DNA from: Pseudomonas typographi
Lineage (GTDB): Bacteria > Pseudomonadota > Gammaproteobacteria > Pseudomonadales > Pseudomonadaceae
NCBI RefSeq assembly: GCF_014694385.1
Contig: NZ_JAAOCA010000007.1
Location: forward strand, 1 to 64,000
Length of the DNA: 64,000 bases
Direction of reading: 5' to 3'
Shown here: positions 47,538 to 50,815 of the stretch, piece after piece
Layout: every line of letters starts with the position of its first letter
Position numbering within the stretch: position 1 is the stretch's first letter
Notes under the pieces: model-generated
The model's input: only the letters and a program-made list of their open reading frames with translations
Databases searched by the model: none
Told to the model about the DNA's origin: nothing
Made by a program: the position numbers and the translations under genes

Positions 47538-50126
47538 TTAGAACGGGATTTGAATATCCGGCGACACTGCCTTGAGCTGGCTGCGGAACACTTGCTTGAT
47601 CCGCTCCAGCTCGGCTTCGTCGTCGGCTTCAAAACGCAGCACCAGCACCGGGGTGGTATTCGAGGCGCGAACCAGGCCCCAACCCTTTGGATAGTCGACC
47701 CGCACACCGTCGATGGTGATCAGGTTGGCCTTGCCCCACTGTGCGTCGTTTTGCAGCGCCTCAATGATGGCGAATTTACTCTCCTCGGTCACTTGAATGT
47801 TGATTTCCGGAGTAGAAACATCGTTGGGGAAGGTGGCGAACAGGTCCTCGGCGTCGCCTTCTTCGCGGCTGAGGATTTCCAGCACGCGCGCGGCCGCGTA
47901 AACGCCGTCATCGAAACCGTACCAGCGTTCCTTGAAAAAGATGTGCCCGCTCATCTCGCCGGCCAGCAATGCGCCGCTTTCCCTGATTTTCTTCTTGATC
48001 AGCGAGTGGCCGGTTTTCCACATGACCGGGCGGCCACCCCAGCCGCTGATCAACGGTGCCAGGCGGCGGCTGCATTTGACGTCGAAAATGATATCGGCAC
48101 CGGGGTTGCGCGAGATCACGTCCTTGGCCAGCAACATCAGCAGGCGGTCGGGGAACACCACATTGCCCTTATTGGTCACCACACCAACGCGGTCGGCGTC
48201 GCCATCGAAGGCCAGGCCCAAGTCTGCGCCTTCTGCTTTGACTGTTTTAATGAGGTCTTCGAGGTTTTCCAGCTTGCCCGGGTCAGGGTGGTGGTTGGGG
48301 AAGTTGCCATCGACATCGCAGAACAGCGGGATCACTTCGCAACCCAGCGCTTCGATCAGTCTCGGCGCAATCACACCGCCCACACCGTTACCACAGTCGA
48401 CCACCACCTTGAGCTTACGCGCCAGGGGAATGTCGTTCTTGATGCGGTCATAGTACTGCGTGAGGATATCGACCTTCTCAATCGTACCCTTGCCGCTGCT
48501 CAGGTCATTTTCCGTGATGCGGCGATACAGTTCCTGGATCTGTTCATTGGCCAGGGTGTCGCCCGCGATGATGATCTTGAAGCCGTTGTAGTTCGACGGG
48601 TTGTGGCTGCCGGTGAGCATCACCCCCGATTTGCCCTTGAGCACGTTGGCGGCGTAGTACAGTGCCCCGGTGGGCACCATGCCGACGTCACTGACGTCGC
48701 AGCCGCTGTCGGCGACACCCTGGATCAATTGGGCGACCAGCTCTGGGCCCGACAGGCGGCCGTCACGGCCAACGGATACATGCCGCTCGCCCTGGGCGAT
48801 GCTTTGCGAGCCGATTGCCCGGCCGATCCAGTAAGCGGTTTCGGCGGTCAGTGTATCGCCAACGATGCCGCGGATATCGTAGGCGCGGAAAATGCTGGCG
48901 GGAAGCGAGGGTGCGACTTGTGCGATGCTATTCATGGCGGGGGGGTACTCCATTCGCAAGGTGTCCTGATCGCCGTCGGTAATCTCGACGACGAGGATTT
49001 CAGACGCTTTAAACGCCGGGTTGGCTCCACTACCGGGTGGCGGGGCGCCCGTGGCATCGCTGCCGGTGTTGCCGGATGGTTCATTCGCCGCCGGGGGGGC
49101 GGACTCGCCGTCGCTTTCGCGAACGGAAAAACGGGCAAGGCCCAGGGCCAACTCGTTCAGCTCCGCAAGGCGCAGGCTGAACGCTTTGATGGTTTTCCCG
49201 GCCGATAGTTCTTCGATCAGTTGAGCTAAATGCTCCGCATCTTCGCGCAGCAGCCCGCGCAGCCCCTGCAGGGCCATGCTCAGCGCCGCCCAGAAGGCGA
49301 CCAAGGCTACGCCAGCCGCCACCAGCATTAACAGGATCGACAGCCAGGGCAGCGGCGCGACGAACGCACTGCCGGCGGTAAATTGCAGCTTCCAGTTGGG
49401 GTTGCCCAGGTCGTATTCGGTGGTTGGGCCGGCGGGGCTGTCGCCGGCCTGCAGCAACACCGTGGGCGCCGTGCCAGGGAATTGCTGTTGCAGGCGCACC
49501 TGGCCGCCCCCAGCGGGCAAGGGCGGCAGGCTGCGTTGTAAGCGCTGCAGGTCGTAGGCCATAAGCAGGGTGCCCGCCACCCGGTTATCACTGGTGCGCA
49601 CCGCCGCCACGCTGTACAGCAGCCAGCGCTCACCGACTTGGCGTGCTTCCAGCGGCACCGGCGCGCCGGCTTCGGCCTGGCGCAGTTGGTCGAGGGTCGC
49701 GTAGCTGATCGGGGCGGGGCGGCTGTCGTCCGGGGTGCCGTGGCCGGCCACGGTGAGGTGGGCATCGACCAGGCCGTCGCGGTAGTGCAGCGCCCCTTCG
49801 GCATTGCGCAGCCGCGCGCTGTCGCTGCTTTGCAGGCTGGCGAGCAGGGCCGGGTCTGCCGCCTGTGCTTGGGTGTCTGCGCTGATTTGCTGCATGCCCT
49901 GGCGCAGGCTGGCGGCTTGCGAGGCGCCCAGTGCACTTGCTAACTGCCAGCGCCAAGCCTGTTGCGAAGGCCCCGGTAGGGCAACCCACACCAGTGCGGC
50001 GGCTACCAGCACACCTAGGGCGGCGGTGATCAGGGCTGGGCGCGCGAAAGCCGCTTTGCCACTAACGGGGGTGACATTGCCCGGCGGCTGTTGTTTGCGT
50101 TCAGCGGTGGCTGTGGTCCCTTTCAC
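47538..50126 (-). CDS. algC: Phosphomannomutase/phosphoglucomutase AlgC with N-terminal membrane domain
   Basis: An 862-aa protein. The C-terminal ~465 aa is the mutase: VMLTGSHNPSNYNG carries the phosphoserine, DGDADRVGVV binds Mg and AGEMSGHIFF the sugar. It makes precursors for alginate, LPS and rhamnolipid-type sugars. The N-terminal ~400 aa has two membrane helices (PALITAALGVLVAAALVWVALPG and WLSILLMLVAAGVALVAFWAAL) around a periplasmic sensor-like domain. The long form starts with GTG at 50126, behind GGAG. An internal ATG at 48935, with GGAG upstream, would give the classical 465-aa soluble enzyme. Confidence 0.93.
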   Translation of the reverse strand: MKGTTATAERKQQPPGNVTPVSGKAAFARPALITAALGVLVAAALVWVALPGPSQQAWRWQLASALGASQAASLRQGMQQISADTQAQAADPALLASLQSSDSARLRNAEGALHYRDGLVDAHLTVAGHGTPDDSRPAPISYATLDQLRQAEAGAPVPLEARQVGERWLLYSVAAVRTSDNRVAGTLLMAYDLQRLQRSLPPLPAGGGQVRLQQQFPGTAPTVLLQAGDSPAGPTTEYDLGNPNWKLQFTAGSAFVAPLPWLSILLMLVAAGVALVAFWAALSMALQGLRGLLREDAEHLAQLIEELSAGKTIKAFSLRLAELNELALGLARFSVRESDGESAPPAANEPSGNTGSDATGAPPPGSGANPAFKASEILVVEITDGDQDTLRMEYPPAMNSIAQVAPSLPASIFRAYDIRGIVGDTLTAETAYWIGRAIGSQSIAQGERHVSVGRDGRLSGPELVAQLIQGVADSGCDVSDVGMVPTGALYYAANVLKGKSGVMLTGSHNPSNYNGFKIIIAGDTLANEQIQELYRRITENDLSSGKGTIEKVDILTQYYDRIKNDIPLARKLKVVVDCGNGVGGVIAPRLIEALGCEVIPLFCDVDGNFPNHHPDPGKLENLEDLIKTVKAEGADLGLAFDGDADRVGVVTNKGNVVFPDRLLMLLAKDVISRNPGADIIFDVKCSRRLAPLISGWGGRPVMWKTGHSLIKKKIRESGALLAGEMSGHIFFKERWYGFDDGVYAAARVLEILSREEGDAEDLFATFPNDVSTPEINIQVTEESKFAIIEALQNDAQWGKANLITIDGVRVDYPKGWGLVRASNTTPVLVLRFEADDEAELERIKQVFRSQLKAVSPDIQIPF

Positions 50127-50161
50127 GGTAGCGTCTCCGCGCGGTTCGTCCCTGGAATCTA

Positions 50162-50343
50162 GGCTCTGTACGAAATGTATCTACGCATCGGTGATGCTGC
50201 GTTGAAAACAGGCACGGATGTCATCACGGATGTAATCACGGAATGCTCATTTACAACCAGTAAACCCCGATGCGGGCCCAGTCCGCTTCCTCGCCTGTTT
50301 TCGCGCTGCCTGACCTTCGCTCGAAAACATTATGTACAGAGCC
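50162..50343. mobile_element. MITE-like element, 182 bp, inserted upstream of algC
   Basis: Terminal inverted repeats GGCTCTGTAC (50162-50171) and GTACAGAGCC (50334-50343) are perfect. Pairing continues inward as AATGT/ACATT after a 2-bp mismatch, and outward through TA and one C-G pair (CTA...TAG), so the target site may be TA. It has no transposase. Inside is a 12-bp tandem repeat. The size and structure fit non-autonomous repeats of the kind scattered in Pseudomonas genomes (for example the R178 type of P. fluorescens), probably mobilised by an IS5-like transposase elsewhere. Family assignment is inference. Confidence 0.7.
50213..50245. repeat. 12-bp tandem direct repeat inside the MITE-like element
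   Basis: CACGGATGTCAT (50213-50224), CACGGATGTAAT (50225-50236) and a third partial copy, CACGGAATG (from 50237). The period is near one DNA turn. It may be a protein-binding part of the element or only a degenerate end sequence. Confidence 0.8.
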
Positions 50344-50359
50344 TAGTCGACCAGCAGCT

Positions 50360-50815
50360 TCAATGGGTGCCGGAGTGGCCGAAACCGCCAGCGCCGCGCT
50401 GGCTATCATCGAACTGCGCGACCAACTCGAATTGGGCTTGCACCACCGGCACCAGCACCAGTTGCGCGATGCGCTCGCCCACTTCAAGGGTGAACGCCGT
50501 TTGCCCCCGGTTCCAGCACGACACCATCAGTTCGCCCTGGTAATCCGAATCGATAAGCCCCACCAGGTTGCCGAGCACGATGCCGTGCTTATGGCCCAAC
50601 CCCGAGCGTGGCAGCACCAGGGCCGCGAGGGCTGGGTCGGCGATATGGATCGCAATGCCGGTGGGGATCAGCAGCGTCTGGCCAGGCTGCAGGGTGGTGC
50701 GTTCTTGCAACATGGCGCGCAGGTCGAGGCCGGCCGAGCCGGGCGTGGCATAGGCGGGGAGCGGGAAATCGCTGCCCAGGCGGGGGTCGAGGATTTTGGC
50801 TTGCAGTGCGTGCAT
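50360..50815 (-). CDS. dut: dUTP diphosphatase
   Basis: A 151-aa trimeric dUTPase with all family motifs: [51 protein letters not shown] and the C-terminal GGFGHSGTH. It keeps uracil out of DNA and supplies dUMP. It starts 3 nt after coaBC. Confidence 0.97.

Follow-up and report, generated by a model that had tools for sequence, protein, structure and literature searches.

A MITE upstream of algC in Pseudomonas typographi and the hairpin core it has in common with MITEs bearing different terminal repeats

The spacer between dut and algC in Pseudomonas typographi holds a unit with inverted ends, which raises the questions of what this unit is, whether it bears on the expression of algC, and what its interior is made of. 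The window analysed here is a stretch of 64,000 nucleotides (contig NZ_JAAOCA010000007.1 of assembly GCF_014694385.1, positions 1 to 64,000 of the forward strand), to which all coordinates refer. An earlier note had described a MITE-like element at 50162–50343, 35 bp before algC, and had suggested that a promoter carried by it could control the gene. In the reading that we favour, with a probability of roughly 0.8 for its parts taken jointly, the unit is a MITE of the IS5 type mobilised in trans, having little effect on algC, and its interior is a conserved hairpin module that acts in cis. A MITE upstream of algC is ordinary in itself; the wider value lies in the hairpin core, common to MITEs with different ends.

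Both the coordinates and the 35-bp distance proved exact. The features of the locus are the following:

50160–50161, no strand: TA, left copy of the target duplication (read from the sequence; TA pairs are also found at other own copies)
50162–50343, plus strand: 182-bp MITE (orientation set by the core, AATGCTCATTTAC strand)
50162–50171, plus strand: left terminal inverted repeat, perfect over 10 bp (15/17 bp); near-identical ends are found on ~944-bp IS5-family elements
50334–50343, minus strand: right terminal inverted repeat (read from the sequence)
50344–50345, no strand: TA, right copy of the target duplication (read from the sequence)
50197–50311, plus strand: conserved hairpin core (match to model R1, 34.6 bits; two insertions widen the span)
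50204–50213, plus strand: outer core stem, left arm (GAAAACAGGC)
50213–50236, plus strand: insertion in the core made of a 12-bp unit in duplicate; the number of units differs among own copies
50244–50249, plus strand: internal-loop side TGCTCA, conserved
50250–50264, plus strand: apical stem TTTAC/GTAAA with a 5-nt loop
50266–50282, plus strand: 17-nt insertion in the right internal loop, capable of self-pairing (CCCGATGCGGG)
50293–50302, plus strand: outer core stem, right arm (GCCTGTTTTC)
47538–50126, minus strand: algC, long form of 862 aa with GTG start, downstream neighbour
50360–50815, minus strand: dut (dUTPase), upstream neighbour

The left end, GGCTCTGTACGAAATGT, and the reverse complement of the right one, GGCTCTGTACATAATGT, are identical at 10 of 10 bp, and at 15 of 17 over a longer stretch. 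The perfect 10-bp repeats of the earlier description therefore stand; its 13-bp version does not, the outer CTA/TAG being target sequence of which TA is duplicated. The spacer is indeed nearly filled: it measures 233 nt from the dut stop (50360) to the algC GTG (50126), of which the element occupies 182, leaving 35 nt on the algC side and, TA counted, 16 nt after the dut stop. Folded as RNA, positions 50159–50346 (188 nt, the element with its CTAG flanks) reach −77 kcal/mol, with a z of −6.6 and none of 200 shuffles as good.

Element matches were found at 11 places in the own genome (E ≤ 1e-3), which rules out a single-copy regulatory dyad. Beyond the window copy, 7 of the 10 matches cover 180 or more of the 188 bases of the query, with 72–90% identity. 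Among the eight longest own copies, window copy included, both tips could be recognised by a simple pattern in six, five of which are bordered by TA on both sides; the targets of the other own copies read CTAG, CTAC, CTAA and TTAG. The element matches in 25 of 57 sampled genomes, 24 of 36 within the genus (own genome included) and 1 of 21 outside it.

A search of nine genomes with the tip alone returned three inverted tip pairs, 910–946 bp apart, which are insertion sequences. An IS1182-type parent, for which DUF772 loci had been retrieved, was set aside once these pairs pointed to an element of the IS5 type. Two of the insertion sequences (in G010 and G008) are open and encode a two-frame transposase, the tested frames matching NCBIfam transpos_IS5_3, and those of G010 also Pfam DUF4096 and DDE domains. 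The element shares 16–17 identical bp with the G010 insertion sequence at both ends, part of the TA target included, and 11–14 bp with the two ends of the one found in G101, whose dut-coaBC DNA is the nearest among the sampled relatives (83%). G101 holds 23 transposase matches, of which nine loci were fetched and the seven with full-length matches examined; all seven are copies of 942–944 bp with near-identical ends, TA on both sides and an open second transposase frame. The same genome also holds 15 matches to the element. In the own draft genome (209 contigs) no complete partner was found: the only transposase match is one of 41 aa, and the partner-type IS5-family transposase is present just as a remnant beside one tip at C154:150808–150930 (L160).

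The insertion sequences with GGCTCTGTACGAAA-like ends thus have the same terminal repeats and TA target as the window element, and differ from it in their length of about 944 bp, in their two-frame transposase and in the hairpin core, which was not found in the examined loci. It is the ends, not the interior, that align the element to the insertion sequences of G010, G009 and G008, other hits lying at E 4.5, and model R1 of the core found no match in 20 loci bearing insertion sequences, 14 of them of this IS5 type. The interior therefore does not look like a deletion derivative, nor the core like a relic, of the insertion sequence. Many MITEs have no IS-derived interior, so that the missing feature does not bar the label.

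A query with the N-terminal part of algC returned no confirmed relative. The search for the empty site therefore used dut-coaBC DNA, which matched 396 of 398 genomes; the 30 best loci, the own one and those of 29 relatives, were examined. Within 300 nt after dut, tip or core is absent in 29 of 29 relatives and present in the own locus alone. When the flanks of the element are joined, they align with G101 through the junction; a gap of 8 nt adjoins the dut stop, and a common GCGGAG precedes the algC start. The insertion is therefore absent from all sampled relatives examined. Judged by this alignment, the algC translation start and ribosome-binding region were left in place.

Ends common with an autonomous insertion sequence, a TA duplication, dispersed copies lacking a transposase and an empty site in relatives are the features by which IS5-family MITEs are known, and on these sequence grounds the 182-bp unit is a MITE. 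The main proposal of the earlier note is thus supported by the 11 own places, by insertion sequences with matching ends and by the empty sites. The likely TA target has been borne out by the window copy, five of six own copies and the seven examined copies of G101, and the suggested search for other copies and a matching insertion sequence succeeded, with the ~944-bp IS5-family element present in relatives and as a remnant in the own genome. The same note had held that a single-copy sequence conserved at this place in all relatives would speak for an ordinary dyad: 11 own places and 29 of 29 examined relatives lacking the element after dut are the opposite. The element inserted into the short dut-algC spacer in this lineage, and we infer that an IS5-family transposase of the NCBIfam NF033580 type, recognising GGCTCTGTACGAAA-like ends and duplicating TA, would move this non-autonomous element in trans.

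Among published elements, MITEPsy1 of Pseudomonas syringae, which has been shown to transpose, is similarly small and non-coding, is listed as "IS5?" and uses CTAG or YTAA targets (PMC3189936). It differs in its length of 100 bp, its 18-bp ends GGAAGGTCTGAAAAAGCC and a reported 4-nt duplication (PMC3189936), and the window element is not MITEPsy1, ends and length being different. In P. fluorescens, R178, which is 101 bp long and contains an 11-bp inverted repeat, and R6, of 177 bp and with 34-bp inverted repeats, could, compared by description, correspond to the present core or element; the families tied there to IS ends are R0 and R2, not R178 or R6 (PMC2718517).

What does such an insertion do to algC? 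That the element supplies or rewires the algC promoter, bringing sugar-precursor supply under mobile control, is suggested by its filling 182 of the 233 nt between the two genes, and MITEs elsewhere have been discussed as regulators (PMC10969869). A 9-mer resembling the AlgR site, with one mismatch, also lies at 50142–50150, between element and algC; matches of this kind are near chance level, with 3 in 3.6 kb against about 1.4 expected by a hand estimate. No sigma-70-like promoter or intrinsic terminator was predicted in 49900–50600, in a scan restricted to that promoter type, and among the intergenic settings of the core the space between divergent genes is the least frequent (14 of 96 places). 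A promoter of the mobile element driving algC is thus not supported, and we regard it as very unlikely.

A second possibility is that the hairpin, once transcribed, serves as an attenuator, a Rho trap or a processing site, lowering algC relative to dut. A very stable fold within a co-directional gene pair would suit such a role; against it, no terminator with a U-run was found in 49900–50600 and the strand of the core shows no clear preference relative to genes in codirectional settings (28 versus 19). We consider it unlikely, a modest polarity being the most that would be expected of the hairpin.

In the reading of a MITE with little effect, algC would most likely be made from coaBC-dut read-through, from a promoter inside the long algC ORF, or from both. 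The ORF has an in-frame Met start at 48935, after 397 residues, at which the classical short AlgC presumably begins. The algC gene of P. aeruginosa depends on AlgR, whose sites lie at −94, +163 and +391 relative to the algC start site, the last within the ORF (PMC4064291), and translation of its mRNA is repressed by the sRNA ErsA (PMC8395346). The in-frame start and the AlgR site within the P. aeruginosa ORF make it possible, by analogy, that a promoter lies within the long ORF, some 1 kb further downstream than the element. Of the earlier alternatives for algC transcription, starting in the element, passing through it or depending on read-through, read-through is retained; that it "must" be one of these does not hold, a promoter inside the long ORF having been missed. 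The effect of the element on algC is probably small.

The interior of the element is of wider interest. Many element matches in relatives covered the middle alone, and this middle recurs inside MITE-like palindromes with other ends. It is a hairpin of about 75 nt, TGCTCA-TTTAC-N5-GTAAA-CTSCGC, whose internal loop hardly varies and whose stems covary: the apical stem TTTAC/GTAAA carries a free 5-nt loop and rests on the conserved internal loop TGCTCA/CTSCGC, below which follow a 4-bp stem alternating between AAAA/TTTT and GGAA/TTCC, a 2x2 TC/TC mismatch and a stem of about 10 bp that varies with compensation, with outer motifs GCGTT/GCCTTG. The window copy is a derived form of the core-bearing element: at its internal loops it carries a pair of 12-bp repeats and 17 inserted nt, which explain its modest R1 score (34.6 bits).

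In alignment A1, made of 32 representatives chosen from 51 clusters (the other 19 had insertions, incomplete stems or stems of the Bacteroidota type, and their omission raises the share of paired cells), 95.4% of 703 cells are paired, compared with 79.5% after shuffling and at most 50.9% after sliding; cells changed on both sides number 114, against 31.9 in shuffled alignments. The contig behind one row (L244) bears the label Pedobacter. A wider set of 125 copies, from which 36 of 161 had been dropped beforehand for poor outer-stem pairing, shows 1499 of 1750 stem cells as Watson-Crick pairs. Since most copies had been selected with exact or relaxed patterns, the apical part is constant in part by construction. 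Among 49 relaxed-pattern copies, lying in loci not fetched by the exact pattern, compensated apical stems were nevertheless found (TTGAC/GTCAA in three, TGTAG/CTACA and TCTAC/GTAGA in one each), as were two changes without compensation; on its left side the loop reads TGCTCA in 46 of the 49 copies, and on its right side CTSCGC in 36, many of the rest having an insertion there.

Such a covariation pattern resembles that of structured RNAs, and the MITEs might simply carry one. Wobble cells are, however, rare and without excess on the modelled strand, 16 G-T against 31 A-C in the 51 clustered copies, giving at most a hint of the other strand. Rfam gave no match in window positions 50000–50500, and in seven loci only tRNA-related matches away from the element (E ≤ 1). 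The 96 places of the core in named contigs, classified by mechanical ORFs, are codirectional in 47 cases, convergent in 26, divergent in 14, inside an ORF in 8 and at an edge in 1, and in the codirectional settings its strand shows, as given above, no clear preference. A structured RNA is therefore improbable; the lack of both a G-T excess and a clear strand preference argues for a role at the DNA level. When folded as single-stranded DNA, the window copy, L215 and L246 are predicted to retain both the apical stem and the outer one (z −3.4 to −4.3); the predicted fold is weak for L277, a copy of the Bacteroidota type (z −0.9). The pairing of the arms could be partly maintained by template switching.

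The same core is found between quite different terminal repeats. It lies within AGAACCTGTCTACGATC ends in G287, where 77 forward and 75 reverse tips (at most 2 mismatches) occur, within GGCACCTCTAAAAA ends in G324 and within CAGGCYGTTGAAAAA ends in G134, with 38 forward and 39 reverse exact tips. Cores with different ends are up to 93% identical (tip families A and B, L026 and L301; C and D, L150 and L324). Inverted repeats flanking the core (score at least 10, beyond 40 nt from it) were found in 121 of 214 copies with full flanks, compared with 0 of 214 after reversal of the right flank and 7% of some 600 cross pairs, in which ends may be shared; the other 93 copies have none at that score. 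Clustering of tips gave 56 clusters, which over-split by register and are not a count of families. The core is present in most short elements with A-type ends: it was seen in 13 of 18 distinct ones from loci chosen by the tip alone. No pair of tips about 1 kb apart was found for family D among the exact tips of G134, nor for family B among 100 of the 152 places of G287.

In G287 the tips would suffice for about 75 copies of the MITE, core-bearing where read. The core-bearing MITE of G324 (L150, 585–760) sits just before a putative radC. In the own genome, the core at C126:72140–72213 (L340) appears by eye to lie within an element with other, GCCGCGTGAAAACG-like ends.

Model R1 finds the core at four places of the own genome (E ≤ 1e-3) and, across the phylum, in 61 of 249 sampled genomes and 30 of 131 genera (E ≤ 1e-5), often in many copies; up to 19 candidates were scored per genome, and these E-values are rough. 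Of 21 loci from this search, 18 show the core by the relaxed motif and three (L357, L358, L361) do not. The exact apical pattern returned at least 118 stretches in named genomes, many of Pseudomonas, and the matches listed include Halomonas, Salinicola, Marinobacter, Marinospirillum, Nitrosomonas, Desulfobacterales and Bacteroidota such as Alistipes; many of the sources are MAGs, in which single contigs may be misbinned. R1 finds the core, in two cases in part, in 15 of 15 picked loci (14 labelled Bacteroidota, one uncultured bacterium), which had come through the exact apical pattern. Two features of this set lie beyond what the pattern selected: the outer motifs of the three best alignments (CTGCGTT or CTTCGTT, with GCCTTG) and the presence of a second copy in L296. 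Plasmid searches gave 6 records for the window element and 15 for that of G324, all Pseudomonas but one Halomonas; of two short plasmid stretches read, at least one (L377) has A-type ends and the core.

MITEs spread horizontally, and inside a single genome (G486, G497) many of the copies are nearly or fully identical. An ordinary IS5-type MITE with a functionless core, kept by common descent and horizontal spread alone, might account for this much. It fits poorly with stems that have diverged with compensation around an unchanged TGCTCA/CTSCGC loop, and with the same loop on other stems in Bacteroidota-labelled contigs, fetched though these were by the apical pattern; we think it has little chance of being right.

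MITE interiors are usually thought free to drift. Here a structured core is kept across the phylum, and apparently into Bacteroidota, while the ends are exchanged. The hairpin module probably acts in cis, in mobility or maintenance at the DNA level, and we infer that it is a selected module that would outlive its transposase partners. If so, some non-autonomous elements would be long-lived lineages that change transposase partners, and some factor would read the hairpin. More tentatively, and with odds somewhat below even, the core may be a new class of selected DNA hairpin, a cis module read by a widespread protein, which persists across phyla through changed outer ends, so that unrelated transposases carry one passenger. 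Correia elements of Neisseria, REP/REPIN hairpins and integron attC hairpins are small mobile DNAs that contain a conserved internal site, or a hairpin with mismatches, to which a protein binds specifically, and the core resembles them at the level of such general descriptions. In the open-licence literature, searches by topic found no description of a core common to different ends, and searches by string found no core string; of the tip strings only the two shortest occurred among the matches listed, under unrelated titles.

Measured with the TA on either side, A-type elements (58, of which 50 have the core) group at lengths of 145 and 161, and further ones are 174 or longer, which is consistent with insertions such as the 12-bp repeats and the 17-nt stretch of the window copy. 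Two coreless forms of 52 bp look like deletions between short repeats; L050, L043 and L052 are coreless elements of 51–52 bp, hardly more than two A-type ends. By eye, the 12-bp unit ACGGATGTAATC is repeated about one to four times within own copies of the element (50213–50236, L003, L004, L006), forming a small internal minisatellite.
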